A DNA stretch of 64,000 nucleotides from Periconia sp. R9002 (Eukaryota > Ascomycota > Dothideomycetes > Pleosporales > Periconiaceae), in contig JAMAHW010000062.1 in NCBI GenBank assembly GCA_023627715.1, positions 1 through 64,000 on the forward strand, given 5' to 3'. Every line of letters starts with the position of its first letter. The stretch's first letter is position 1. Below, in pieces: positions 7,294 to 45,074 of the stretch. The notes beneath the pieces were generated by a model. It worked only from the letters and a program-made list of their open reading frames with translations, did not search any database and was not told where the DNA came from. A program made the translations under genes and the position numbers.

Positions 7294-10200
7294 TTAAACT
7301 CGTCCGTCTTACTGTACACACGAACGAAAACGCAACTGCCCTCGAGTCAGATGGCGGGGCCTGCGCTGTACGAACACCGAAGTTATCATCTACCTATCGC
7401 AATCTCCTTATCGATACTCCCAATTTCGTGTACACTACACTACTGACTGGTACCTTACCACCGCCCCGGGATACAGTCACCTTCTTCTTTCCCGAACCCT
7501 CAAAAACGCGCGCTCAACAACACAACGACGTAAAAAATTGTATGCAGTAACGAGACTCACGACCCCCTTTCTCTTTTTCTACTTCCAACTCGAGTATACC
7601 CCCACCCCACCTACTTTACTGCGTGTGGGCGCGCGCGCGTGTCGACCCACCCACTCACAGGTGTCGCGCGAAAACCAGAAAAATGGTGTTCTTCGTTCGC
7701 TTTTTGTCGGCAGGTTGGATACCTAGGTACCTACCCCCACTTCGCTTCTTTTTTCAGCTTTCGTTCGAAGGCTTGGTCTACCTACCTGCCTAGGTAGCTT
7801 GCTTGCTTGCTTCTGCCGCGCAGCCGCGGCTAGCAAAACAGGGGAAGGGGACAAGGAAGGGTTTTATTTGTGTATAGTACGTTTACATAAGTAGTATGTA
7901 TGTAGGGAAATAGGTATATACAATGAATGCAGAGATGTTATATTCTGATCTACGCACGTAAGTGAAGTGAATGATATTTTCTCCCCTTCTTCTTCCCCCT
8001 TCTTCTTCGTCCCCTCGCCCAGTGCCATGCGAAACAGAAGAAAACGCACTCCAGCGTACCAAATAGAGTCCACGCCTTCCATTCTTTTTTCTTATTACTA
8101 TCTGGCTTTCGTTCGTCAAAAAGGACAATCAACGTTTGATACGAGTAAGGGTAAGGGTACGGTATGGTGTTCTAGTGTTGTTTATTATGTACTGCGGCCG
8201 AGGTGTGGTGGATGTAGGTTTTGAGTTGGGGACATGATATGTTATGTTGAACACTGCTCTGCTTCACTTTAGTGTCACTGGGGCTAGTGGGACGGAGGAA
8301 TTGGGGAGCAGGAGGAGGGAAGGAAAGAAGGAAGGGAGGTGTTTGGTTGGTTGATGGTATGATTGTCGGTTAGTGGGAAGGGGATGTATATATTGTATGT
8401 GCGTGTGTGTGTGTGTACGTGGTCTACTCGATCCAGCTGCATATCGTCGACGACACTCGCTCGCCTTTTCTCGCTTGTGGGAAGAAGTGGGTGTGCGTGC
8501 GTCCGGGTGAATGGTCAAGGTTGTTAGGTGAGAGACATGACTGAATGCGGATACCTACCTACATCTGTAAGTAGGTAGGTAGGTAGGTAGTTGAAACTAA
8601 ACGAATCTGGTTGCCTGCGCACATCTAGTGCGCTACGATTGATGCCGATGTCTGGGATGGACGAAAGCGGTCGTATCAACTTGTCCTTGTTCCTCCTACG
8701 GGTAGATCTAGGTACAAGAAAAGGAGAAGAGGGGAAGTTGGTTGCGTCTTAGGTTTGTGTGATGCTTCTTCCTACTAGATAGGTATTACGTATATGTAGA
8801 GGTACTTGCCTGACACTGTGGGTATGGTTATTGGCAAGGGTCGCCATCAAGTCGACAATTACTTCCCAATCTTCATGGTTGATGAATAGGTACTCGCTTT
8901 ATGTACCGGTCTATGCACTAAGTCACGCACACCCCTTTGAACTGAATCCTCTTGAGAGGAAGGCGAGGTCGTAAAGCGAAGCACTTAGCCAAAGGGAAGG
9001 CTAGTCTTGGGCTACTGTGTCTATTGGAGAGTTGAGTTTGTTCTATGGAGAACCCAGCTAGCCGAAGGTCTCATTGACTTTTGTCGATTTCTTGAATGGA
9101 GTGGGAGTGGGTACGAGGCAATAGAGTAGCAGCCGGATCTAGCTAAGCTTAGCGCTTCCTTTACGCTTTCTCGCTGGTCGATTGGCTGCTTTGCAAGAGA
9201 GCTGAACAACTTGGGCAAGCTGACAGTCATTCAGGGGAAGGGCGTCGCGATGGGATGCGATGTTACGCTACGATACCGCGCTTTTACCGACGCGACGGAC
9301 GGCAGAAGAGTCATGACCAGAAACCGAAGGCGCGTTCGGGGTCTAGAATAGCCAGTGGCATCTGACTACCAAACGAGCTATTTTCTTTTTCTTATTTTTT
9401 ATCGATATGCGGGAGATCATCCAGGGCGACGGGCGCAGGCACGCGCATGCCACGCTCGAGTCGTTGGTTGGATTGGAGGGGGAGTGGGGATTTGGCAGGA
9501 TTGAACCGGTTTGATATTTTGTTGGAAGGATCCGAGCGGAGGCTGGACTTTTTACGATGCCTGTTTGGTGCTCATATAAGTAGGTGTCATTTGTGCCGCA
9601 TCATGCGTGCGTAGGAACCGCGTTGCATGCAGTTTTGTACTTGTTGTAGGTAGGTATTGTACTCGGGGTCTTGGGCGAAGCTTTCCAAGTGCGCCTGTGC
9701 TGCGGTCTGTTCATTCTGACCACGCCGCCCACCGGCTCGCCAATGGCGTGGAGACGGTAGATGATAGATGGGTCGCTGTCATAACCCAATCGTCAAATCG
9801 CGCCATTTTGACTCGAGCAGACGAACGGTTATTAAGTGCAGAACTGTATTGGCAGTGTGTGACGCGGATGATGGATGCATGATATCATTTGGCACTCGTA
9901 CATGTCCTTCTCTGTTGCTCTGCCTAGGGAGGGTGATTAGGATGGACCCGTCTATTTCTGGAAATTTGGCCCCATTTCGTCGAGGTGGGGAGTTGTTTGG
10001 CTTCGTTTCCCGGTGGTTCCTCGTCGACCGCTCGTCGCCCCTTGACTAATTCGAAAGGGGGGGAAATGGAATCAGGCAGTAGCCGGGGACGAAGAAATAA
10101 GCAGTAAGCAATTGATTATGGCACGATGTAATGCGAGTGTCCGGTGTAAGGCCGCAATGGGGATGGAGGGACGGTGGTGAAATGAAATGACGCCGCTCGT

Positions 10201-12750: not shown

Positions 12751-15675
12751 TCACATGACCGAGCAATTCACTTTTCTCCTAGGACTAACATCCTTATCGC
12801 CAGAACTACCTAACCAACCCTCCAACCGACTTGCGCTCCGCGCTCCTCCATGGTGCACATCTTCCCCATAATGGCTCGTCATTCGCGAACCCGTCCGCGG
12901 CGGTGCGCTCACCGGCCCAACCGCCTGTTGCAGGGGAGCCCGCCCCAAACCGTCGCCCCTTGTCGTCAATCGTGGAAGCATTGTCCGCCGCTCCCGGGTG
13001 CGAGGTGCCTGTGGTTGTGGTGAAACAGGCATACTGATGCGGTTGACCCTTGAACTGGAAGCGGGACGAGGTCGTGAGCCGTGCGACTCGGGTGCTGAGC
13101 CTCGACGGCCGGTGTGAGGGTCCACGACCGGGGGTGGGCGTAGGTCAAATGCGCTTTCCAAAGCACGACGAGCGCTCAAGTTAGGCCTCGTGCTCGGACG
13201 TGGCGGGGAAGGGTTGGAAGCGGAGTGGAGTGCAGCTGTGGCCTGATAGGCCGATTGGTTGGCAATGTTGGGGACGGGAGGGATGTTTTGTGTTTGTGGA
13301 GGTGAACGAGATGCTGCTGAGCTTCTTCTCCTGCGACCCGAGACCAACTCGTCGGGGCTAGGGAAGGTGGACGGGTGCACAAGAGAGGGACGGCGGTCAT
13401 TTTGGGTTGGAGTCACCTGTCGCTGGTGGCTGGACCGCAAAAGATCGATTGAGGACTGAGACTGGAGAGAACCCATTCGGGTACGGTACGGATGTGATTG
13501 CGGGTTTGGAGGAGCAGGGATATTTGCTGGGATCGCGGGCACTGGCGGGAGGACAGAGGCTCTTGGATTGGGATTTGAACTGGGAGAATTGGCTGGTACA
13601 GGAGCACCATTTGGATGGCTCAGACTAACACTTTGAGATGCTTCAGCGGTCTTCGTGTAAGGTGGTGGAGGTGGGACCCAATTATCAGCATCGCTTTCAT
13701 GAGGGAGCTCTCGGAGCCCATCGGCGCGTCGGTACTCTAAGGGTCTGAATGGAAGGGCTCGAAGATGTCGACGGTTGGCTGGCGACACAGCAGCTACTGT
13801 GGCTGCTCTCAGTAGCGACATTTGAGATCTCGGCTGCTGCATGTCGTATGGAGCCTCGAAAGCGGCCTGTGCTTCCTCAGCTGTCAATTCTTCTTCGTCT
13901 GCTGCTCCAGGTTGCCGAACCGAAACGGTTGGAGGCGGCGGCTGCTGCTGTTGCTGTCGACGAATTGTTCGTGGCGCTGAATGGGTAGGTGTTGATTCGG
14001 CCCTCGAATGACCCCCGGGGCGTGTAGTTGGCTGCGCTCTACGCTGCGCCATGGTTCTCCTCCTTACCAGCTCTACTTCCCGCTCAAAATCAATAGAACC
14101 CTCCGGCAGCAAATCTCCCGGGCATAGCGGGTCTAAGTCGTACACAGTTTTGGTAGGAGTGGGGATGGGGCTATCTAAGGGTTTAGACCTGTCAAAGTCC
14201 AGGACAAGAACGACTCCTTTGGAGCCTTCGGGCGCTTCAGGCATCTCATTTGTTGCCATGCTTGAATTTCCAACGGCGACAAGGCGCTGCACATGATCAT
14301 TGAGGGCTACCCAGCGAAGAGTGTGTATTTCCTGAACCGAGTCCGAGCCTTCGTTGAGAATGGGTATGCAGAAACATGGCTGTATGGGAGATTGATCCAG
14401 CTTTTTATTTGCCTTGAAATCCCATTCTGGCACTTGGTAAATCCATATGCTCGTGGTTCCACGCATCCTCAACGCGACGGCCGCTAGATCGGCATTCGGC
14501 GAGACTGCGGGCATGGCATCATCAAGAAACTCGGACCTTGTCCATCGCTGCTGGTCGGGCAGAAACATTTTACGCTGCGTAAACCGCTGGGTCCCGATAT
14601 CGTAGATTCCCCACGTGTCCTCTTGCGAATTGAAGGCAAACAGCTCGTTCACTTGTCCCGTCTCGTTGTCGGGAATCAGAGTGGCTTGCCGAGCAATTTT
14701 GGCAGTTTCAGGGAAGAGTACTGAACCAGTCCAGACGGCCGATGGTGGCTGTGGTATCGGCACCCCTTCTTCGTCAAAAGGGCCGTCGTACAGTCCGGGC
14801 AGCACGTAGAGGGATGAACTTCCGGACTTGCGGGCATGACTCGTCATAAGGAGTGTACGCCCACAATCGGAAAACTCGAGCACATCCCCCACCGGCCCCG
14901 AAAGCGTGCGTCGGGCTGTCTCTGGTGCTTCGGGTCCAATCGCAAGAACTTCAATTCCAATCGAGTTACCAGCAATGAGAATCAGGCCGTCGGGTGAGAT
15001 GACAACGGTGCTGGCTTCGTGTACCAGCATGATGGTTTTTCTCTTTACAATCCGCCGGTCCTGCGCTTGGGCATGGATCTCATATATATCTACCTGGGTA
15101 GATTTGCTCAATACGGCCAACAAGAACCCATCTTCCGTGACATCGACAGCGACGGGTTTCCTTTTGACCTGCAATGTTCTCGCCCATAATCTCGGCAGCT
15201 GAACTGTTTTGATAAGCCATATGTTGCTGGAGGAGTAGACCGCCACAAAGTTTCCCTTTCTGCTAACGTTGAAGTCGAAGGAATCTGCGAGGGCGGACGC
15301 GGATGCAGTATGGGTTACGAGCTCGAGGATGGTGAGAGTTGGGTGGGCGTGTAGAGTAGGGTGGGATCGATCATCATCGTCGTCGGCCATTGTGGATGTG
15401 CGAGCCGTAGAGTGGGCGGATACAGCCGATGCACTGGAGATATCCGTGTTCCCTGCGGAGCTCGCTGATAGATGGGTGTGAATTTGCTCTTCCTCGCCTT
15501 CTACGTCGTCGTCGGAGCCCAGAGAAGCTGAGCGCGGACGGCCTGGGGCCCCTCGCATTGTGCTACGCTCGGCGCCATGGTCACTGGCAAGGCCCTTTCC
15601 TTTGCTTCGCCGTCTGAAGTCAGTATGGATGGCCAGGGCGTGGGCCTCGTCTTGAGGTGCTCTCCTCCCCACCAT
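12751..15675 (-). CDS. Large protein: propeller-like N-terminal half, disordered C-terminal tail
   Basis: One uninterrupted frame of 974 residues. The N-terminal half, from about residue 105 to 520, has the strand-turn rhythm of a WD40/beta-propeller (FNVSRKGNFVAVYSSSNIWL, PVAVDVTEDGFLLAVLSKST, EASTVVISPDGLILIAGNSI, GDVLEFSDCGRTLLMTS). The second half is Pro/Ser/Arg-rich and almost certainly disordered, with a polyQ-polyP stretch near residue 590. It looks like a conserved filamentous-fungal family of unknown function; I cannot name it. The true start may be downstream, at the Met of residue 40 (MRGAPGRPRSAS) or residue 96 (MADDDDDRSH), since the first 95 residues are low complexity. No catalytic motif is visible, so a scaffold role is only an inference. 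Confidence 0.82.
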   Translation of the reverse strand: MVGRRAPQDEAHALAIHTDFRRRSKGKGLASDHGAERSTMRGAPGRPRSASLGSDDDVEGEEEQIHTHLSASSAGNTDISSASAVSAHSTARTSTMADDDDDRSHPTLHAHPTLTILELVTHTASASALADSFDFNVSRKGNFVAVYSSSNIWLIKTVQLPRLWARTLQVKRKPVAVDVTEDGFLLAVLSKSTQVDIYEIHAQAQDRRIVKRKTIMLVHEASTVVISPDGLILIAGNSIGIEVLAIGPEAPETARRTLSGPVGDVLEFSDCGRTLLMTSHARKSGSSSLYVLPGLYDGPFDEEGVPIPQPPSAVWTGSVLFPETAKIARQATLIPDNETGQVNELFAFNSQEDTWGIYDIGTQRFTQRKMFLPDQQRWTRSEFLDDAMPAVSPNADLAAVALRMRGTTSIWIYQVPEWDFKANKKLDQSPIQPCFCIPILNEGSDSVQEIHTLRWVALNDHVQRLVAVGNSSMATNEMPEAPEGSKGVVLVLDFDRSKPLDSPIPTPTKTVYDLDPLCPGDLLPEGSIDFEREVELVRRRTMAQRRAQPTTRPGGHSRAESTPTHSAPRTIRRQQQQQPPPPTVSVRQPGAADEEELTAEEAQAAFEAPYDMQQPRSQMSLLRAATVAAVSPANRRHLRALPFRPLEYRRADGLRELPHESDADNWVPPPPPYTKTAEASQSVSLSHPNGAPVPANSPSSNPNPRASVLPPVPAIPANIPAPPNPQSHPYRTRMGSLQSQSSIDLLRSSHQRQVTPTQNDRRPSLVHPSTFPSPDELVSGRRRRSSAASRSPPQTQNIPPVPNIANQSAYQATAALHSASNPSPPRPSTRPNLSARRALESAFDLRPPPVVDPHTGRRGSAPESHGSRPRPASSSRVNRISMPVSPQPQAPRTRERRTMLPRLTTRGDGLGRAPLQQAVGPVSAPPRTGSRMTSHYGEDVHHGGARSASRLEGWLGSSGDKDVSPRRKVNCSVM

Positions 15676-31113: not shown

Positions 31114-32825
31114 TTAATATACGTAAAGGTTCATGACTTCAGGGTTTTCCCTCCTCATTCTCTTGTTCTGAGCCTTGAGGGCATATTTGAGGGGCAAAGT
31201 GATGAGGATAACACCCACCGCAAAACCAATACTTGCGCCCCATGCAGTCATGTATCGGGGTGAATCGGATGACGGCCAAAGGTAGGGTGTGTATATGTTG
31301 GCTAGGCCGCCTAGCATATTACACAAGGCAAGCGCCACGGACCTTTTCTCGTTGGTTTGCCCGAGGGTAGAGCTTAGCCACGACAGCATAATATTGTTGA
31401 TGCCAAAACTGAACCCCACAAAAAGGAAGATGCTAAGCATGCGTGCGGCGAAATTGCTGGTCGCAGCTGGAATAATAAACCCAATTAGAACGATGGATTT
31501 GCATATCACGATATGCCAGGTTCGCTCGTTCCAGTGACCTGACGTCCAGGCGATGATAAGACCCACTATGGCTGCAAGGATGAAAGGTGGACAGGTCAGA
31601 GCCAATGTCACGGTTCTGCTGTATCCTAGGGTCGACATGACCGTGGGAAGGAAATTTTGGAATCCAACCGACGATATGTGGAGATTGTACATGAGACAGA
31701 ATGCCCATGTACGCCAGTCTGCCACTGCATCTCTCAGGCCAATCCAGACGTTAGTGCCTTCCTGAACATCGGTCGTGTCGATAAAGATTCGGTTGTGCGC
31801 TATTTGCCTTTCCTCTTCCGTTAACCATCTGGTAGTTAAGGGGTAATCAGGTAGGAACCAAAAGGCCAGTAGCGCGGTGGCTGCTGAAAGTGCGCCCTGT
31901 ATGATGAAGAGCCTGTCATCCAGTCAGTTCTTGAGAATCAATCTTCAGGCTTTTACGAGCACATACCATTGCCAACCAGCTAACCCGTGCTTTTGGTCAA
32001 GGCCCTCGAAGATGCCGGCTGCTATAAGCCCAGCGAACGATCCAGAAAAGTTATTGCCAGTGGTCAGGATAGCCAATCTAGTGGCTATCTCCTTACGGGT
32101 ATAGAAGAGACTGATAATGTACAAAGCTCCTGGGTAGAACTATCAAATTGTAAGCAATGCTCAAGTCTGATATATTAGATGTCAAGACCTACTGGAGCCT
32201 CCACTATCCCGAGAACAAAGCGAAGGGCGACCATGCTTGGATAACTAGTTGCCAAGAAAGACAGAAGACTGATGACTGACCATGCCAGGCAGAAGCCAGC
32301 CATGAACAAAGATGGCCGAAACCTGGTCATAAGCATATTACAGGGGATCTGGCCAAGCCTGCGCGGAATCAATCAATTTGAGATATATCTGTGATGAGCG
32401 GAGCGAGACCCACGTATATCCAACGAAAAGAATAGATACACATGTGTTATACTGTGTATTCTTCAGGCCCAAGTCTTTTTCCAGATTGTTGAGTCTTGCG
32501 TTGACAATAGCATTACGATCAAGATAGTTGAATGTGTACATAAACCATAGAATAGGCTGCATTGGTTGGCTCAGTAGGTCGTGGTGAAGAGATTGAGGCT
32601 TACCATGATATACCAATCTAGTTTCTTAACTAATTTGATCTCGCGAGGGTCCGTCTTTGCATGCGCTCCAAACTTATCCACCTTGTCCATGACGGGGAAC
32701 TTGGTGGCTTCGATATCGCCGTCTTGCATTGTCTCAACGGGGGTAATCCGATTCTGAATAGCTTCATCATCTTTTGTCTTAGTGGTACCAGTTACGCCTG
32801 GACTAGGCGGAGTAGGTGCGGTCAT
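31114..32825 (-). CDS. MFS anion transporter, Dal5/allantoate-permease type
   Basis: Minus-strand exons 32604-32825, 32414-32556, 32193-32358, 31967-32139 and 31114-31912 join in phase to 500 residues. The ACS/Dal5 subfamily is evident: KKLDWYIMPILWFMYTFNYL, DRNAIVNARLNNLEKDLGL, the family phrase GYTLGQIPCNML (usually GY-x4-PSN), RFVLGIVEAPFYPGALYI, YTRKEIATR and GWQWLFIIQGA. Members carry carboxylated nitrogen compounds such as allantoate, ureidosuccinate, nicotinate and related acids with protons at the plasma membrane. Here it starts a run of hydantoin-pathway genes, so uptake of a hydantoin or N-carbamoyl amino acid is the natural inference. Twelve hydrophobic helices fit the length. Four HGATAR sites lie in its upstream spacer. 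Confidence 0.93.
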
Positions 32826-33263
32826 GATGGGAAAGAGTGAAGGATAGTTTGTAGAGTCCTCAAGTTTTGAAATGTATTGACTATGTTGGGTTTATAGCTT
32901 CTACAATCCTTCTCGCAACGGCAGCTCCTTATCCGTGAACGAGACCAGGATGCGTTGAGGGAGCAATACTCCTGTCATGGTATATTTGACTCATCAGCGC
33001 AAGGCCATACGCCAGAAGTGGATTTCCTGACTGTCGACCTTCTACATCAGGGTCAGTTAAGACTTTTTCAAAGATAAGCGTGCGGTTGGTACTCGCAGAA
33101 ATGGGGGGAGTGGGAGATTTGATTGAATCAATCAATTGTTCTCAAAACCTCGGGCCGACCTTATCGTTCGATGATCATCGGGAAGATAAAGCAACCAGTA
33201 ATCCGACCATGTGCCTATTCTATCATTCCTCCCAAGTTACAACTATGAATATAAAACTTGTTA
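32826..33263 (-). promoter_or_regulatory. Promoter region of the Dal5-type transporter, GATA-rich
   Basis: This 438-bp spacer lies upstream of the transporter and downstream of the racemase. I count four HGATAR hexamers on either strand: AGATAA at 33072-33077 and 33184-33189, and reverse-strand copies at 33161-33166 and 33220-33225. About 1.3 would be expected by chance. AreA/NIT2-type GATA factors bind this sequence in nitrogen-regulated fungal promoters; binding here is inferred. Confidence 0.5.
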
Positions 33264-34055
33264 TTAGTACCATGCCTGGTTTCGGGCTTTGCGCCCAGCC
33301 TCCGCCGGCCGATATGCCCCACCCTTTGCCGTCCCAAGACCCTCGCGAACCAAGCCGATGAGGAATTGCACGCCGATAGTGACACCATCTACCACCATGA
33401 CTTGTCTCTGCTGCGTTCCAACAGCTCCTTCACAGGCCTCTTTCGCCCCAGTCATGCCAGCACATCCGAGCGCAAGACAATCTGCCTTTCTACCCTCTAC
33501 AAGTTCTTTGGCGGCCCGCGTCACCCCTGCAAATACCTCTTCCTTCGGCTTATTCTCTAGATCCAGGACTGAGATCTTGCAGGCAGCGCATCCCGCTGAG
33601 AAATTGGCAAATCCGTAGTCAAAGATGGTCTGCTCATGGATTATCTCGGATCTCTCGCTTGTGGTGATGATTCCCAGTTTGTTTCCGCACATTCGTGAGG
33701 CGTACAGGGCCGATTCCATGATACCGAGTACCGGTTGTTCCACTTCCTCGCGAAGGGCGGTTATGAGCGGGTGGTTGCTGAAACAGCAAACAAGAAAGGC
33801 GTCGAATTGATCTTTAATGGGCACAATCTTGCGCAAGCACTCAGCTGACGATAAAACACCGTCGACTCGACCTTCAATAGCACTGGGTGCCGGCGGAGGA
33901 GCAGTAAAGCCGTAAACTGTCACCCCTGGCGGAATTTTGCTGGAAACATTTCGAAGGCAAGCTTCGGTGATGTGAGAGGAAGAGTTTGGATTGATCAAGA
34001 GGATGGAGATCGGGGTCTGTTGAGCACCCGTGACTGACGAGAAGGTCGCATTCAT
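33264..34055 (-). CDS. Asp/Glu/hydantoin racemase family protein
   Basis: Intronless, 263 residues from the Met of MNATFSSVTG (ten codons further upstream is an alternative Met). The Asp/Glu/hydantoin racemase fold shows in ISILLINPNSSSHITE, the first catalytic-type cysteine at position 91 in AFLVCCFSNHPL, VLGIMESALYAS, NKLGIITTSERSE and the second cysteine at 198 in CLALGCAGM. The two cysteines act as the opposing acid/base pair in hydantoin racemases, which invert 5-substituted hydantoins. The yeast relative is Dcg1, of unknown function and located in the allantoin region. Placed between a Dal5-type permease and a hydantoinase, hydantoin racemisation is a strong inference, though an allantoin-type substrate is possible. 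Confidence 0.92.
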   Translation of the reverse strand: MNATFSSVTGAQQTPISILLINPNSSSHITEACLRNVSSKIPPGVTVYGFTAPPPAPSAIEGRVDGVLSSAECLRKIVPIKDQFDAFLVCCFSNHPLITALREEVEQPVLGIMESALYASRMCGNKLGIITTSERSEIIHEQTIFDYGFANFSAGCAACKISVLDLENKPKEEVFAGVTRAAKELVEGRKADCLALGCAGMTGAKEACEGAVGTQQRQVMVVDGVTIGVQFLIGLVREGLGTAKGGAYRPAEAGRKARNQAWY

Positions 34056-34314
34056 GTTGGCACAGCGAGGTAGGTAATGCTTCACGCCGTACTTTAAAAA
34101 TATGCACTTAGGAGGGAAATTGTGGTTTGGTTTGGTTCGCAGCAGTAATGGCGGGCGAGGGCGCTTTTAACATGATCCGAGGCATTTTCCCCACTTCATC
34201 ATCTGAATTGAAAAGAGTCCGGCTCCACACGGTGAAGTTCCAGATGACAAACATCAATGACGCCCAAGCAGAAATGGTTCTATGATTAACAAGTGCTACC
34301 AAAAATTGATCCAG

Positions 34315-35921
34315 TTACAACCAAAGCTCGCGTTCACCCGGCAGCATGCCTCTGCCCTGTTGGCCCATCTTGCCAGTGACAAGCTTTCCTTTGTTGCGGC
34401 GCAGGAACTGCCCATACCCCCTTTCGCCTACGATCCCAGCGCCATCATGATGCCATACAACCTTGCCTCTGACCATCGTGTATCTGGGCCAGTTCTGAAC
34501 AGAGAGACCTTCAAAAGGCGTATAATCAACGCCGTGGTGGAGGTTCTTCTGGCTAATAGTTACATTTCCCCTTTGGTCACCAGGAGGATACCAAATAACC
34601 AAATCGGCATCAAATCCTACCATCAAAGTTCCTTTTCTATCATCCATACCGTACAGCTTGGCGGCATTACTGGCTGTGAGTCGGACGAATTGTGGCAGAG
34701 TAATACGCGCCTTTTCAGGTGCTAAGCACCCTTCGGACTGATTGAACAGCAGTGCCATCCTCGTTTCAATTCCCGGTAATCCATTGGGAACTTTGGAAAA
34801 TCTTACTACACCATCTACTATGCCTGCCTTTTTGCCCAAAGGATGGTCATACTTGGTGGCCGCATGATCTGAAGACCAGACGGTGAAAGCACCGTTAGCC
34901 AAGCCTCGCCACAAGCCCTCAAGATCCGACGCGTGATGTCGCAAAGGCGGCGCACAGATGAATTTTGCGCCGTGGAAATTGTCACCGTGGTGGCACTGTT
35001 TGATCTCGTCGGAAAGGAGAAAAAGGTAGTGAGGACAAGTTTCGGCATGCACTGGCAAGAGCCGTGCTTGGGCAGCCCGAACATGCTCGACTGCTGATTC
35101 GGATGACATGTGTACTAAGAGGATAGGTGCATCGACCAATTCGGCCAGCGAGATTGCTCGGTATGATGCCTCGTCTTCGGCAATCCGTGGTCTTGCTATC
35201 GCGTGGAAGAAGGGATCTGTATCTCCTTTCTGTTCAAGGCGCTGGATTACCATGGCAATCATATCGGAGTTCTCTGCATGTATCATGGTAGTCATGCCTA
35301 AACTACGGCAAGAGAGCATTACATCAAGTAATTGCCCATCATGTAGTTTGTACGGCTCGTACGTCATGTACAGTTTGACAGACGTGATGCCTTCACGATC
35401 GACCAACTGTGGCATTTCGTCCTGGAGGATCTCCTGTGTTGGATTCGTGAGAACGACGTGGAATCCATAGTCGCAATACACGTTTCCATTTGCTTTTTCA
35501 TGATATTTCTGCACAACGTCCAGCACCGAGGTTTCATGGCGTTTCTGGCCGGCGAATGCGAGAACAGTAGTCGTTCCGCCGGCAACAGCACTTCGCGAAG
35601 CAGTTTCCCAAGTGTCACCGGTTGGCATCGTGTCTTGCTGGATGTGAGCATGTGAATCTATGCCGCCTGGGGTGATGTAGCCGCCTTCAGCGTCAATTAT
35701 TTCCATGCCGGCTGCTCCCTTGGCGAGATCATACCCAAGCGCAGCAATCTTGCCGTCTCGGATACCAATCTCCAGACCAACCGGTAGAACTTCATTTGCT
35801 GTTACCTTGGGTAAAATCTGTTAGCTTTCTGAATTATTCAAGCCTCCGAGTAGTGTAAAATACATACGAGAATACCATTTTTGATAATGCAGTCAAATTC
35901 ATGGCGTCGCTCTTCAGACAT
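34315..35921 (-). CDS. D-hydantoinase / dihydropyrimidinase
   Basis: Exons 35868-35921 and 34315-35805 (minus strand) join in phase to 514 residues, starting MSEERRHEFDCIIKNGIL. An in-frame alternative acceptor 12 bp upstream would add four residues. The cyclic amidohydrolase metal site is complete: His70 and His72 in GGIDSHAHIQ, the carboxylated Lys162 in SVKLYMTYEPY, His194 in MIHAEN, His250 in LLVHMSS and Asp331 in WSSDHAA. PNGLPGIETRMALLF near the C-terminus is diagnostic of the dihydropyrimidinase/hydantoinase group. It hydrolyses hydantoins (or dihydropyrimidines) to N-carbamoyl amino acids in the cytosol. A pure pyrimidine-degradation role is less likely because the neighbours are a racemase, a D-carbamoylase and a D-amino-acid oxidase. 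It shares a divergent promoter with the dehydrogenase gene. Confidence 0.94.
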
Positions 35922-36392
35922 GATTGAGGCTGTAAGCGCAATAGGTAGTTGGCCAAGATGATTGAATTATGCTCAGCGCATAATCAATAAACACCGTTGG
36001 GACGATAAAACACACGTTTTCGTATGTTATGGAACCAAAAGGCATCGTCTGGCAACGTACGATAGCTTCGGTCTTCCTACGCCACTTTTGATAGCTTGAG
36101 TTCGTTATCCTTCCCCACATCCTGTTTCGGCACCCTGCCTACCGTTATCTCGGCGGTTGTTTATCTCGACAGTAGATCCCTTGACCCTGGCGCTTTTCCG
36201 AAAGGCCGTCGGCGTCGGCATCGGCTAAGTTAATCGGATTTGTAGAGACAGCAATGCTAAGAACATCATTGGGAAGGACATTCGACATCAAATGCGTGTA
36301 TGCATTGCCTGTCTGCCAAGTTTAGGTCTGTTTCTTTCTACTGATTTACAAAATCAACAACCCTAAGTTATTCATCCATCTGCTTCAATAGG
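35922..36392. promoter_or_regulatory. Bidirectional promoter with five HGATAR sites
   Basis: This 471-bp spacer drives the hydantoinase (minus) and the D-2-hydroxyacid dehydrogenase (plus). HGATAR hexamers occur at 36003-36008, 36060-36065 and 36089-36094, and on the reverse strand as TTATCT at 36145-36150 and 36161-36166, the last two 16 bp apart. About 1.4 would be expected by chance. Paired GATA sites are typical of AreA/NIT2 targets; regulation by nitrogen source is inferred. Confidence 0.55.
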
Positions 36393-37430
36393 ATGAGCGA
36401 GAAGCCGGATTTGCTCATCATCGATTCAACGGTGCTGGACGTTGACGTCGCTCGCCGCCAAGCACTGGCCGAAAAGTTCAATCTACTTTATTATGATTGT
36501 ACCACAACCGATGAGTTTAAAAAACGAATGAAGGACGGCGGCCCTTACGCGCAAGTTGTGGCAATCATGCGCAATGGCTGGCGTAAGGCTGGTCCTCTGG
36601 CAAACCACCGCCTCTTCGCGGCTGACGTCGTGCCCTTCTTTCCAGAATCGCTGAAGCTCATTGCATGCAGTGGACACGGATATGAAGAAGCGGATATCGA
36701 AGGATTGACCGCCCGAGGCATTTGGTATTCTAACACCCCAAACGCATGCACCGAAGCCGTATCGGTGACGACAGTGTCTCTCATAATCGACTCATTCCGC
36801 TTCCTGTCTTTCGCCCAATGGTGCGCGAGATACGACTGGATGAAGAGTCGCGAGTTGAGCTCAAAAGCCGTTGATCCCACCAACAAGTCTCTGGGGATCG
36901 TGGGACTTGGTAACATTGGCCTCGCCGTGGCACAGAAATGCGAGGCCGCGTTTGGAATGAAAATACATTATCAAGGTCCACGACCAAAGACTGAGGCTGA
37001 GCGGTCATTGAAGAATGGAGCCATATATCATTCGACCGTTGAGGACATGATTCCGGAGATTGACTGCATCGTACTTGCTGCGCCTTACACCAAGGAAACT
37101 CACCACTTGCTCTCGCACAAACAGTTCTCGCTTGCGAAGAAGGAAGGTCTTCGGGTGGTGAATATTGCAAGAGGCGCAATGATCGACGAGGATGCTTTGA
37201 TAGAGGCGCTGGAGTCTGGACGCGTTCCAGGGGCAGGGCTCGATGTTCATGCTAATGAACCAGGAGTAAATCTCCGACTCAAGGAGAACTGGAGAGTTGC
37301 TTTGCTGCCTCATATTGGCGTCTGCTCGGAGAGTAGCTGGATCAACTTTGAGAAAGCGAATCTGGATAATATTGAGGCGTTCTCTAGTACGGGAAAACCA
37401 TTAACTCCCGTCAACTACATTTCTCAATAA
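36393..37430 (+). CDS. D-2-hydroxyacid dehydrogenase (2-oxoacid reductase)
   Basis: Intronless, 345 residues. The nucleotide-binding motif is GLGNIG at 171-176 within SLGIVGLGNIGLAVAQK, and the catalytic triad of the D-isomer-specific family is visible as Arg260 (VVNIARGAMID), Glu289 (DVHANEP) and His307 (LLPHIG). The family reduces 2-oxo acids to D-2-hydroxy acids with NAD(P)H; members include hydroxypyruvate/glyoxylate reductases and D-mandelate dehydrogenases, the last close in style to this one. In this cluster it would take the 2-oxo acid made by the D-amino-acid oxidase. No peroxisomal tripeptide is present (it ends NYISQ), so it should act in the cytosol. Divergent from the hydantoinase, with shared GATA sites. 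Confidence 0.93.
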   Translation: MSEKPDLLIIDSTVLDVDVARRQALAEKFNLLYYDCTTTDEFKKRMKDGGPYAQVVAIMRNGWRKAGPLANHRLFAADVVPFFPESLKLIACSGHGYEEADIEGLTARGIWYSNTPNACTEAVSVTTVSLIIDSFRFLSFAQWCARYDWMKSRELSSKAVDPTNKSLGIVGLGNIGLAVAQKCEAAFGMKIHYQGPRPKTEAERSLKNGAIYHSTVEDMIPEIDCIVLAAPYTKETHHLLSHKQFSLAKKEGLRVVNIARGAMIDEDALIEALESGRVPGAGLDVHANEPGVNLRLKENWRVALLPHIGVCSESSWINFEKANLDNIEAFSSTGKPLTPVNYISQ

Positions 37431-37748
37431 ACTATTACCGTACCGGAATTCATGCGCAACCTGAGTTATCATCTAAAGAGCTAATGTAACGGTCAAATGT
37501 CGGACATACATAATTGACATCTGCGATAAGGCCGGAAAATTTTCCGTCGCCCAAGTCCAAGTCAGCTTAGGATGATTGATCTTGGCAAATATTCCTCCGA
37601 TTAAACCAAGCCGATGAGTCGGGGAGAGTGCAGCCGACGGCCTGAGTCGCTGATCGGCTATAAACAGAGCTAAGTCGCGAATAAAAAACCAGTGCTTCAT
37701 TACTAAAACGTACTTACTCTTCTCGGAAACAAAGATACTCTGCCAATA
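37431..37748 (+). promoter_or_regulatory. D-amino-acid oxidase promoter: TATA box and GATA sites
   Basis: A TATAAA element at about 37659-37664 lies 85 bp before the start codon. HGATAR sites occur near 37465 (reverse strand, TTATCA) and near 37523 (CGATAA). Together they resemble an inducible, nitrogen-regulated promoter; this is inferred from sequence only. Confidence 0.45.
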
Positions 37749-39095
37749 ATGCGTACGTAGAAGTCATTGATATCAAGCCAGACTTTGTAGAACTACGCTA
37801 ACTACCACATTTTTGTTGGCTCATCAGCCTTTTTTCTCGTCATTGGAGCGGGAGTTGTTGGCCTTACGACTGCCCTGGAGCTTCGATCCCGACACCCCCA
37901 AGCTCAAATAGTCGTTGCAGCAAAGTATTTGCCCGGTGACAGCGCTCCTGAGTACACTTCAGCCTGGGGAGGGGCAAACTGGTTTCCTGCTGCTACAGAT
38001 AATGGCCCCCAACAAGACTGGGAGGCGATCACATATCGTAAGTTCAAGAGCCTTTGCGCAGACAGGCCAGACTGCGGGATCCGGCCTATGAACATCCGGT
38101 GGCATTATGAAAGTCCCATCGAAACCGTTGGCATCTTGACTCCGGCTACTGGAAAGCTTTGGTTTGAGGAACTGGTAGGAGGACTCAAAAAGATTGAGAA
38201 AGATGAATTACCTGAAGGAACAGCTTTCGGGTTTGAGATGGCCAGCTTTGTTATCGATGTGCAGAGATATTTGCCCTGGTAAGTGAAAAACTTTGCTTTG
38301 TTTATCCCAAATCTCAAGTCTGATGACGAAAAACATATGTTAGGTTGCAGATAGAATGTTTCCGGTTGGGGATCGAAATACACCGACGCATTTTCGGTCA
38401 CATTGACGAGGCATTTGAGCTTTACCCTCAAGCCACCGCCGTCTTCAATTGTACGGGACTAGGTGCGATGTCTCTGGGAGGCGTAGCGGATAATAGTATG
38501 TACCCTGCTAGAGTAAGTTCCATGCCATATGTGACCCTTCCTTACAAGTCCTCACTTCATGTTTTATGCAGGGTCAAATATTGCTTGTCCAAGGACCAGA
38601 GAAGCCAATTAAAAAGATGTATTTCCGCGCGCCACATCGTGCTGGTGAAGCCACCCATATTTTCCCTCGAGGAGAACGTGGCGGTGTCATTTTAGGCGGC
38701 TGTCGCCAAAAGAACAACTGGAGTGGCGAAGTGGATCTTGCTTTCGCTGAGGTTATCAAGAGACGCTGTTGTTTGCTTGTACCAGAATTGGGGAAACCAG
38801 AAGACTTAAAGATCGTTAAGCATGGCGTTGGGTTACGTCGTAAGTGAATGGATTTTAGTGACTACGTTGCAATATGCTGATTGTGTCCAGCTGGCAGAGA
38901 AGGCGGGCCGCGCGTGGAATCGGAGATCAGAAACGGCAAGCTGGTTATCCACAATTATGGCGCGGGCGGAGTCGGATTCCAGGCATCATGGTATGTTGAA
39001 GCCGTACCTTCGATTCTCACCCTACTAATACACAATCCATTAGGGGCTTAGCACAATATGCGGCAGATTTACTTCCGCAGAGAGCGCGATTATAG
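37749..39095 (+). CDS. D-amino-acid oxidase, peroxisomal (C-terminal ARL)
   Basis: Exons 37749-37752, 37828-38278, 38344-38512, 38572-38839, 38891-38990 and 39044-39095 join in phase to 347 residues. The first coding exon is just ATGC; splicing gives MPFFLVIGAGVVGL, the FAD-binding start usual for this family. Other DAO marks are YTSAWGGANWFP, VFNCTGLGAMSLGG, ARGQILLVQGP, the substrate-carboxylate Arg in GLRPGREGGPRVE and NYGAGGVGFQASWG. The enzyme oxidises D-amino acids to 2-oxo acids, NH3 and H2O2. The C-terminal ARL fits the PTS1 consensus, so peroxisomal. D-aspartate or glycine oxidase-like substrates cannot be excluded. Its place next to a D-carbamoylase explains the D-specific supply. 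Confidence 0.9.
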
Positions 39096-39668
39096 ATGAG
39101 AGTGCGGCATTCATAAATATGGGATATTTTCCCAAAATAGGAGAGGTGGATGCTATTGCTCGAACTGATGGTAGATTATTTGAATCTCAACAGTCAAATG
39201 TTTTTCCCAACGAATCCTTGTATATGTCCCCCGGTTGACGAGTTGAACTTGAATAATACTGCTCTATCATCAATCAGTCCAATTTCTCTCCGCCGGTATT
39301 ACCCATATGCGCGTTTTCCAATATCAAGTTGCAATGGGAAATTCAAATGCTAAGTCGTAGAAAAAATCAGGATATTCTTCCCAGGAAAATTAGTTGCCTG
39401 CATAGTGTATTTGATAAGTGTTTCTGACCATGGCTTGTGTCTTGGGCTGCAGTGTAGGCCTTGAGTTCCTGGATGATCGGCCCGTCCCGACTTGTGCTGC
39501 CGACTTTTGGTTGCCGCCACTTTCGTCCCACTTTCATGTCATCCTTATCTACAGACCTTTATATTATTCATGCTTCTTACAGCAAAATGATAGGGCGCTA
39601 AAGACCAGTACTTCACTTACAAAGGATTCGCATTCAATTCCAGAACGATACTGCTTTCACATTAGAAG
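39096..39668 (+). promoter_or_regulatory. D-carbamoylase promoter region with GATA sites
   Basis: The 573-bp spacer contains HGATAR hexamers at 39412-39417 and 39589-39594 and reverse-strand copies at 39264-39269 and 39545-39550, about twice the chance number. No other gene is supported here. Confidence 0.45.
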
Positions 39669-40818
39669 ATGGCTACAGCAAATGGATCAGACCTATCAAG
39701 GCCCTTGACTGTTGCAGCAGCGCAACTGGGGCCAGTCAAAAGCTTGTCGACGCCGAGGTCGGAAACCTTGGGTCGCATGCTCAAACTACTCGAGCAAGCT
39801 GCAGAAAAAGGCGTCGAACTCCTTGTGTATCCAGAGTTAGCTTTCACCACTTTCTTTGCCTCCTACATTATCCAGGACCCCGACGAGCTTGCCAAGTTTT
39901 TCGAAAAGGCTTCACCATCAGAGCCTTACGCATTCGTCAACTCCCCGAATATTAAGCCTCTTATCGATCGAACTAATGAGCTTGGAATTGACCTCTACTT
40001 TGGGTTCGGAGAGCGCTGGGTCGATGATGGCAAGACAAGCGATTTCAACACAAGTGTATACTACTCGGCTTCTCAGCGAAATTGTATAGCAAAGTACAGA
40101 AAGATTCATCTCCCTGGAAGATATGAGCCACTCACAACCCCTGGCTTCAGCCAGCAACTCGAGAAACGCTACTTTACGGTCGGCGATCTCGGCTTCAAAG
40201 CTTTTCGAGCACCAGGGTTGGTCGACGGTGCTTTGAAGGCTAAGGACGTTGATGTAGCTGCTGATCCCAAGGCAAATCAAGGAAGAGGTGATCCCATTAT
40301 CGGGATGCTCCTCTGCAACGATCGTCGATGGGCTGAAGGTTGGAGATGCTACGGACTACAAGGTATCGAGCTTTTACTAGTAAGTGCATCTTGTTAATAT
40401 ATTTTCTAGTTTGGCACGAGCACTCACGATATTTACTTAGGAGGGATACAACACCACGGCATTTGCTCCGCAATACGAAGGTTCGCCGGAGTGGCAAGAA
40501 GAAGAGGCACTCTTTCACCATCGGTTGTCTTGTCAGTCCGGAAGTTATCAAAACGCGTGCTTCAGCATTCATTCTGCCAAAGCCGGTGTAGAGGATCACG
40601 GGTCTCTTATCGGTGGCTCAAGTATCGTCGACCCCAATGGTCACATCATTGCCGAGGCCAAGACTAAAGAGGATGAGCTTGTTTACGCGACTATTGATCT
40701 CGCAAAATGCCGGAAAGGCAAAGGCAGGGTTTTTGCTTTTGATGATCATCGAAGGCCTGAGCATTATTCACGTCTTCTGGAGCAAGTGGGGGTTCAGGAA
40801 CCTCCATTTCTTGACTGA
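39669..40818 (+). CDS. N-carbamoyl-D-amino-acid hydrolase (D-carbamoylase)
   Basis: Exons 39669-40379 and 40441-40818 join in phase to 362 residues. The nitrilase-superfamily triad is Glu56 (LLVYPELAFTT), Lys145 (KYRKIHLPG) and Cys216 (GMLLCNDRRWAEGW). CNDRRW followed by GLQGIELLLEGYNTTAFAP is the signature of the D-carbamoylases known from Agrobacterium and relatives, and HSAKAGVEDHGSLIGGSSIV and RRPEHYSRL agree. The enzyme hydrolyses N-carbamoyl-D-amino acids to D-amino acid, CO2 and NH3. An insertion between the Lys and Cys segments (about residues 165-207) makes it longer than the roughly 300-residue bacterial enzymes. Cytosolic: no signal or PTS1 (ends PPFLD). This is the most diagnostic gene of the cluster. 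Confidence 0.94.
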
Positions 40819-43157: not shown

Positions 43158-45074
43158 ATGGAGCTAAGGTTCCAAACTACAGTGTTCGGCCAACTTGTAC
43201 GGACTGTTTCAAATGGTCGTGCCTTGCGTTACCCTGATGAAATCGATCCTTCTTTATGGAAGAAAGCCGTTGAGCACCAAGTTCCGGATCAATCGCAACA
43301 AGCACTTGGGGATTCACAAGATACCGGATGCTTGAACGAGGGCGAGGAAGGATCTAGCAAGGACCTTGAGCCAATAGAATCACGAAACGATGTACCGCGC
43401 GAGGAAATCGTAGCAAAACAAGGAACAGACACAAATGTTGTGGTGGTTGACTGGTACGGTCCGGATGATCCAGAGGTAAGAAGCGTCGTCCATTCGACTC
43501 AATTGAAATGAGCCCGCTGATCGTGTTTTTCGTTGGCAGAACCCTCAAAATTGGTCGGAGAGTTACAAGCACTTGATCATCTTGCAGCTCTGCATCCTCA
43601 ATTTCGCAGTATACATAGCGAGCTCCATCTACGTACCAGGAGAACCAGATCTAATGAAGGACTTTGGAGTCAGCAAGATTGTTGCAACGCTAGGTCTTTC
43701 GCTTTTCACCATGTAAGTAAATTTATACTTTTTATGGTATAAAGCCGTGGAGTATCGCCAAAACTGATACCGTTCTTTAGCGGATACGGTATAGGTCCAA
43801 TGCTTTGGTCACCTTTGTCCGAAATGCCCAAACTAGGCCGCTCGGCAATTTTCTTCTGGACCCTCTTCGCGTTTATCCTGCTTCAACTGCCTGTCGGCTT
43901 CGCGCCAAACATCTCCGTCTTCCTCTTCTTTCGATGGTTGACAGGCTTCTGTGGCAGCCCTTGTCTATCCACCGGCGGTGGCGTCATCACCGACATATAC
44001 GCCCCAACAAAAGTCCCATATTTCCTGTGTATATGGGCTGCGGCGGGTGTGCTTGGACCGATCCTAGGACCGTTAATCGGTGGATACCTAGCACCAAGTG
44101 CGGGATGGAGATGGTCTATTTGGACGTTTACGTGCATGTGCAGCCTCGTGCTTGTCATCATGTCCTTCTTCTTCCCCGAAACAAGCGCGGCTAATATCCT
44201 GTACAAGCGCGCGAAACGACTGAGGAAGGCCACGGGGATGCAGCATTTGCGAAGTCAGTCTGAGATTGATTCCGCGCATTACACACCGAAGGATAATTTG
44301 CGACTGGTGGGGAAAGCATTCACGTTGACGTTCATGGAGCCAGTCGTCTTACTCATTAACATGTTTGCGGGACTTCTTTACGGTGTGCTCTTTACTTGGT
44401 TCGAGTCCTTCCCACTCGTCTTCGGAGACATATATCACTTCGCCCCTGGCGAACAGGGACTCGTGTTCATGGGCATATTAGTATTCTCGATCATCGCACT
44501 ACCTCTTTTCCTCCTCTGGATCAAACTCCGGCTAGTTCCCGCAATGACATCCGGAAACTTCAAACCAGAGATGGTCCTACCGCCAACTACCATCGGAGCG
44601 GCGGCGCTACCAATTTGCCTATTTTGGTTTGGATGGACGTCCCGGGAAGATGTACACTGGATCGTACCTATCGTAGGATCTGGATTCTTCGCTATTGGAA
44701 TCATCACACTATTCAACTCGCTTTACATGTACCTTGGTATCGTGTACGCTCAGCACGCTGCATCCATCTTTGCGGGCGCGGCTCTGTTTCGTGCCTCGTT
44801 CGGTGCGACATTCCCGCTTTTTGTAAGTTATCGAATGAATTTTTGATTTCGCGTTGCTTTCTGGCTAATGTCTGCGTATGTAGGCACCTTCGCTGTTTGC
44901 GCGCCTAGGGATCGGACCAGGCAACTCACTTCTAGGTGGCATTGCGGTTTTGTTCTTCCCGATTCCACTCGTGTTCTATCGCGTAAGTTGGTTCTAATGT
45001 TACCCTAAGTCCTCCATAACCTGACTTATCTTTAGTATGGTGAGCGACTTCGTGGATGGAGTAAGAACGCATGA
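43158..45074 (+). CDS. MFS drug/polyamine:H+ antiporter, DHA1 family
   Basis: Exons 43158-43475, 43540-43712, 43781-44822, 44884-44982 and 45036-45074 join in phase to 556 residues. After an acidic cytoplasmic N-terminus the DHA1 entry phrase DPENPQNWSESYKHL is rebuilt across the first intron, followed by SIYVPGEPDLMKDFGVSKIV and GYGIGPMLWSPLSEMPKLGR (motif A region). Then come RWLTGFCGSPCLSTGGGVIT, GPILGPLIGGYLA (the antiporter motif C) and GWRWSIW. Twelve helices fit the length. Members export polyamines, fungicides or small toxins. The short last exon encodes a basic YGERLRGWSKNA tail. Substrate unknown; it may or may not belong to the neighbouring catabolic cluster. Confidence 0.92.

Follow-up and report, generated by a model that had tools for sequence, protein, structure and literature searches.

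Six adjacent genes on contig C62

The window analyzed here is a 64,000-nucleotide stretch of the Periconia sp. R9002 genome (positions 1-64000 of contig C62, in a genome of 42.9 Mb and 267 contigs), and coordinates are window positions unless another contig or stretch is named. At 31114-40818 the window holds six genes that a first-pass annotation had assigned to adjacent transporter, racemase, hydantoinase, dehydrogenase, oxidase and carbamoylase functions. Splicing and Pfam searches bear this assignment out: all six genes are present, each is spliced on GT-AG introns to yield an intact protein, and the products belong, in map order, to the MFS_1, Asp/Glu/hydantoin racemase, amidohydrolase, 2-Hacid_dh, DAO and CN_hydrolase families (Table 1). 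The transporter, racemase and hydantoinase genes form a minus-strand triplet and the dehydrogenase, oxidase and carbamoylase genes a plus-strand triplet, the two diverging from a common upstream region. From transporter to carbamoylase the intron counts are 4, 0, 1, 0, 5 and 1; the description of these genes as intron-rich thus holds for two of the six and fails for the core trio of racemase, hydantoinase and carbamoylase, which carry two introns in total. Catalytic motifs are intact in the cluster's enzymes, and among the five enzymes submitted to NCBIfam the hydantoinase alone exceeds a curated cut-off. The weakest part of the oxidase gene model is its 4-bp first exon (37749-37752).

Table 1. 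Genes of the cluster and the shared upstream region, in window coordinates.
Feature	Position	Strand	Description
MFS transporter	31114..32825	-	5 exons (32825-32604, 32556-32414, 32358-32193, 32139-31967, 31912-31114), 500 amino acids; MFS_1 4.7e-40
Asp/Glu/hydantoin racemase	33264..34055	-	single exon, 263 amino acids; PF01177 9.2e-53; two cysteines of catalytic type
Cyclic amidohydrolase (hydantoinase/dihydropyrimidinase)	34315..35921	-	2 exons (35921-35868, 35805-34315), 514 amino acids; full metal site; TIGR02033
Upstream region common to hydantoinase and dehydrogenase	35922..36392	.	471 bp; 5 HGATAR sites
D-2-hydroxyacid dehydrogenase	36393..37430	+	single exon, 345 amino acids; PF02826 8.5e-41
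D-amino-acid oxidase	37749..39095	+	6 exons (37749-37752, 37828-38278, 38344-38512, 38572-38839, 38891-38990, 39044-39095), 347 amino acids; DAO 1.8e-34
Nitrilase-family N-carbamoyl-D-amino-acid hydrolase	39669..40818	+	2 exons (39669-40379, 40441-40818), 362 amino acids; PF00795 2.3e-40

Under the assumption of uniform placement in the genome, and with family counts taken from genome searches, the chance expectation for hydantoinase, racemase and carbamoylase genes lying within 8 kb of each other is about 2e-6, and for all five enzymes it is about 2e-11. The counts comprise 2 hydantoinase-like loci (excluding an allantoinase-like gene on contig C16 and a weak match on contig C5), 4 racemase-family, 2 carbamoylase, 7 oxidase and 10 dehydrogenase loci.

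A carbamoylase-racemase pair, clustered and fused

Nitrilase-family enzymes rely on a Glu-Lys-Cys triad. In the window carbamoylase these residues are E56, K145 and C216, and all three are invariant in a seven-sequence alignment of this protein, a fusion protein encoded on contig C66 and five plasmid enzymes. The motif CNDRRW, pointed to earlier as a D-carbamoylase signature, is present and starts at residue 216. Among solved relatives, 11 N-carbamoyl-D-amino-acid hydrolase sequences match the window carbamoylase at 1.1e-66 (6le2) to 1.2e-63, and the next nitrilase follows at 8.4e-8. By sequence, the solved N-carbamoyl-D-amino-acid hydrolases are far nearer relatives of the enzyme than other nitrilases are.

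The C66 fusion gene occupies 8150-9979 of its contig, where one frame of 609 amino acids, set in an open frame of 622 codons (8111-9979), encodes a CN_hydrolase domain followed by an Asp_Glu_race domain. The carbamoylase and racemase motif sets are both kept. The linker between the domains lacks a methionine, leaving the racemase domain without a separate start codon at that place. The fusion is identical to the window carbamoylase at 170 of 329 aligned residues (52%) and to the window racemase at 131 of 258 (51%). Because the same two kinds of enzyme are fused on C66 and also clustered in the window, a joint function is indicated, and we regard these sequences as strong evidence that carbamoylase and racemase act together.

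To place this pair we assembled 85 bacterial carbamoylase loci, namely the best 80 of at least 575 confirmed candidate stretches plus five plasmid loci. In a tree of 87 rows the window carbamoylase and that of the fusion, the two fungal sequences, stand together as a single clade (100/99) apart from the 85 bacterial ones. The nearest non-fungal carbamoylases among the matches listed are 40-47% identical and belong largely to Acetobacteraceae, related bacteria and Bradyrhizobium. In 6 of the 85 bacterial loci the frame immediately after the carbamoylase encodes a racemase, the same order as in the C66 fusion, and none of the 85 carries both in one frame. Of 52 plasmid records with matches, 7 match at least 80% of the fusion at one place, in every case listed as two pieces.

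Hydantoin racemases of family PF01177 use two catalytic cysteines, and both of those ascribed to the window racemase are found, in the sequences LVCCFSNH and ALGCAGM. More distant racemase-family genes lie on contigs C114 (stretch L030:5902-6618), next to a methionyl-tRNA synthetase gene, and C44 (188160-188804). No cluster is seen at either, the C44 neighbors having been viewed as open reading frames only. Identity to the window racemase is 68/195 for C114 and 57/196 for C44, so that the fusion, at 131/258, is closest. In a first racemase tree, built without the C114 and C44 genes, the window and fusion racemases are sisters. In the enlarged tree, window, fusion and C114 racemases form a clade (100/98) of unresolved inner order with C44 outside; the C114 sequence is partial and on a very long branch, and both trees carry long-branch and composition warnings. 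A single duplication of one carbamoylase-racemase pair fits the carbamoylase tree, and it is put forward here as only possible because the racemase order is unresolved once C114 and C44 are added.

Lineage of the hydantoinase and setting of the cluster

The binuclear metal site of cyclic amidohydrolases of this class consists of four histidines, a lysine and an aspartate. In the window hydantoinase these are H70, H72, K162, H194, H250 and D331 (motif positions), exactly as previously numbered. The protein passes TIGR02033, the D-hydantoinase model (described as dihydropyrimidinase), with 424.8 bits over a cut-off of 393.25, and as a whole protein falls below the cut-off of the allantoinase model TIGR03178 (215 versus 357.85 bits). 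Its nearest solved relative is the dihydropyrimidinase 2fty (5.9e-111), and bacterial D-hydantoinases come next. In a tree of 11 sequences it forms one group (100/99) with 2fty and a partial paralog on contig C27, the order within the trio remaining open, and it does not group with bacterial D-hydantoinases, including those adjoining D-carbamoylases. Membership in a dihydropyrimidinase lineage shared with its own genome and 2fty makes the takeover of a whole bacterial operon unlikely, and we dropped transfer of a complete operon as unsupported.

The nearest solved relative of the oxidase is the D-amino-acid oxidase 7ct4 (3.7e-68). The window enzyme has the PF01266 fold, and the arginine of its GLRPGREGG motif aligns with those of 7ct4 and 6rkf; enzymes of the DAO fold bind the substrate carboxylate through an arginine. 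Two further arginines, R227 and R253, stand at positions that we take to set a preference for acidic D-amino acids. Both align with arginines of the D-aspartate oxidase 6rkf and are also arginine in a paralog on contig C5, and the equivalent positions are not arginine in the C1 paralog, 7ct4 or 1c0i. Two observations count against this hint: 9vpf, labelled a D-aspartate oxidase, has neither equivalent, and H237 replaces a tyrosine found in both 7ct4 and 6rkf. These residues leave room for an acidic substrate. The C-terminus, ARL, is a candidate peroxisomal targeting signal.

The dehydrogenase contains the nucleotide-binding, arginine and histidine motifs GLGNIG, NIARG and LLPHIG. Its nearest solved relative is the D-mandelate dehydrogenase 2w2k (4e-48), and no NCBIfam model scores it above its cut-off. 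For the transporter, MFS membership stands and the proposed Dal5 subfamily is putative, the best solved relative being the D-galactonate transporter 6e9n in a weak match (E 4e-7). A second MFS transporter gene lies at 43743-44846, about 3 kb past the carbamoylase gene.

A close hydantoinase (>250 bits) lies within 2.5 kb of the carbamoylase in 6 of the 85 bacterial loci. Loci L032 and L034 contributed to the racemase profile, and L034, L096, L097 and L111 to that for the hydantoinase, so that matches at those loci arise by construction; a plain tblastn search with the window proteins places a hydantoinase close to the carbamoylase in loci L096, L097, L111, L113 and L114, L034 being outside that search. 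The bacterial hydantoin clusters of Sulfitobacter (L034), Rhizobium (L097 and L111) and other alphaproteobacterial loci (L113 and L114) share with the fungal cluster closely set hydantoinase, D-carbamoylase and racemase families. The fungal genes differ in having introns, a hydantoinase of another lineage, carbamoylases in a clade of their own, and an accompanying oxidase and dehydrogenase. Relatives of the latter two are absent from the 85 bacterial loci in profile searches (E 1e-10 and 0.1), in which remote relatives could escape since each profile is a single sequence, and from the best 80 of at least 575 bacterial stretches by tblastn at 1e-6; the absence is weak where loci are short contigs. 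On the Sulfitobacter plasmid, L034:7506-12852 encodes a carbamoylase, two racemases and a dihydropyrimidinase; a gene for a ureidoglycolate lyase lies nearby. A pattern search hit 8 stretches of viral contigs, none of which encodes a relative.

The upstream regions of the cluster genes contain 15 sites of HGATAR, which we take to be the target of fungal nitrogen regulators, in 2059 bp. Dinucleotide shuffles of these regions average 7.1 sites (standard deviation 2.5) and reach 15 in 5 of 2000 cases, and random window segments average 4.7 and reach it in 1 of 2000. HGATAR was the first of six motifs counted, and the shuffle frequency multiplied by six is 0.015. GCCGAC, a motif chosen after inspection, occurs 5 times in the five upstream regions and 30 times in the whole window. 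The 11-mer AGGCCGTCGGC lies upstream of both the hydantoinase/dehydrogenase pair and the oxidase, and its 12-base form is found 13 times across the genome, twice in the window. It was dropped as a shared promoter word because sets of random window segments, in which draws could overlap each other, share a word as long or longer in 1286 of 2000 draws (272 at the 19-nucleotide ceiling).

Competing readings and a proposed pathway

We consider it probable that these genes form a fungal catabolic cluster that would use 5-substituted hydantoins and/or N-carbamoyl-D-amino acids as a nitrogen source. The basis for this assignment is the protein families, their clustering, elimination by other loci and the C66 fusion, and from these both function and stereochemistry are inferred. 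To our knowledge, hydantoin use through a D-carbamoylase has been described from bacteria only. Several observations weigh against the assignment. Contig C66, the site of the fusion gene, gives no hydantoinase match. The lineage of the window hydantoinase is, by sequence, that of the dihydropyrimidinases, a class that accepts a broad range of substrates. The racemase matches the hydantoin racemase 3qvj (2.7e-22) and the allantoin racemase 5lfd (3.5e-22) about equally well, and both stand beside the fungal racemases in the racemase trees. Finally, the racemase's own upstream region contains no HGATAR site, and the five upstream regions have no long promoter word in common beyond chance.

A cluster serving chiefly N-carbamoyl-D-amino acids or D-amino acids, with hydantoins as minor or non-natural substrates, seems unlikely. 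The carbamoylase, oxidase, dehydrogenase and transporter would be enough for such a role, and 79 of the 85 bacterial carbamoylase loci, some of them short contigs, lack a close hydantoinase by the limits given above. Against it, an amidohydrolase and a racemase lie in the same cluster, and a racemase is also the fusion partner of a carbamoylase on C66.

Two further readings turn on other loci of the genome. Contig C27 carries a second dihydropyrimidinase-like gene, 45.5% identical to the window hydantoinase over 415 residues, and an adjoining M20 gene whose product matches the beta-alanine synthase 1r3n at 1.3e-88. The two are arranged head to head, with the paralog at L028:6799-8181 and the M20 gene from about 8530 onward, and a gene for a phenol-hydroxylase-like FAD monooxygenase adjoins them. 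Contig C16 carries an allantoinase-like gene at 12912-14548, found in pieces of 181, 146, 70 and 30 bits, with an allantoicase gene about 26 kb away; the identity of the former rests on these pieces, no single one of which passes the allantoinase cut-off. The presence of pyrimidine- and allantoin-type genes at these loci weakens the case for either role in the window, and by sequence the window cluster appears to be a third such system in the genome.

Catabolism of allantoin (5-ureidohydantoin), with the racemase acting on allantoin, the amidohydrolase opening it and the transporter importing allantoin or allantoate, is very unlikely. The DAL cluster of baker's yeast likewise groups a ring amidohydrolase, a racemase-family gene and a transporter for nitrogen use, and the racemase's tie between 3qvj and 5lfd accords with this reading. 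In an exon-by-exon search, moreover, the window hydantoinase gives the best single allantoinase-model piece of the genome (207.7 bits), and all pieces genome-wide stay below the cut-off. The whole window protein, however, scores below the allantoinase cut-off and above that for D-hydantoinase, an allantoicase and an allantoinase-like gene are found on C16, and neither a D-carbamoylase nor a D-amino-acid oxidase is known to us to take part in the breakdown of allantoin.

Reductive pyrimidine catabolism from dihydrouracil to beta-alanine, with accessory genes added and with the hydantoinase acting as dihydropyrimidinase and the nitrilase as beta-ureidopropionase, is highly improbable. The hydantoinase does group with 2fty, but matches of the carbamoylase to D-carbamoylases reach at least 1e-63 and those to other nitrilases, one of them labelled beta-ureidopropionase, no better than 8e-8, a pair resembling PYD2/PYD3 (2fty and 1r3n, which we take to be yeast enzymes) forms the separate C27 locus, and we know of no role for a racemase or a D-amino-acid oxidase in that pathway. 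The window cluster also differs from pyrimidine catabolism of the PYD2/PYD3 kind in that its carbamoylase belongs to the nitrilase family rather than to M20.

The carbamoylase similarity, the separate placement of pyrimidine- and allantoin-type genes, the C66 fusion and the lack of oxidase and dehydrogenase matches in the 85 bacterial carbamoylase loci together support the hydantoin/N-carbamoyl-amino-acid route that the first-pass annotation proposed. Its further claim that the route is D-specific does not extend to the hydantoinase, since grouping with a dihydropyrimidinase leaves D-selectivity unreadable from sequence. For the hydantoin/N-carbamoyl-amino-acid route we infer step order, substrate, stereochemistry, transport, compartment and nitrogen control by GATA factors as follows. 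The MFS protein would import the substrate, and the racemase would interconvert hydantoin enantiomers. The hydantoinase would cleave the ring to give an N-carbamoyl amino acid, from the D-form of which the nitrilase-family carbamoylase would strip the carbamoyl group, releasing a first NH3 and CO2. The oxidase, perhaps in the peroxisome, would deaminate the resulting D-amino acid to a 2-oxo acid, a second NH3 and H2O2, and the dehydrogenase would reduce the 2-oxo acid to a D-2-hydroxy acid or run in reverse.

A more specific and rather doubtful version holds that the pathway did not come from a relocated bacterial operon and was built in fungi, from a ring opener of dihydropyrimidinase lineage, a fungal carbamoylase-racemase module, clustered or bifunctional, and a D-aspartate-oxidase-like enzyme, and that its natural substrates may be acidic hydantoins such as hydantoin-5-propionate or hydantoin-5-acetate. 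Such compounds could arise from the breakdown of histidine or ergothioneine.

If the proposed hydantoin route is correct, the C66 fusion would serve as a two-step catalyst, ready for use, in the conversion of racemic hydantoins to D-amino acids. A fungal cluster that includes an oxidase and a reductase would constitute a new eukaryotic route of nitrogen salvage, and it would point to hydantoins having a natural function in fungi.

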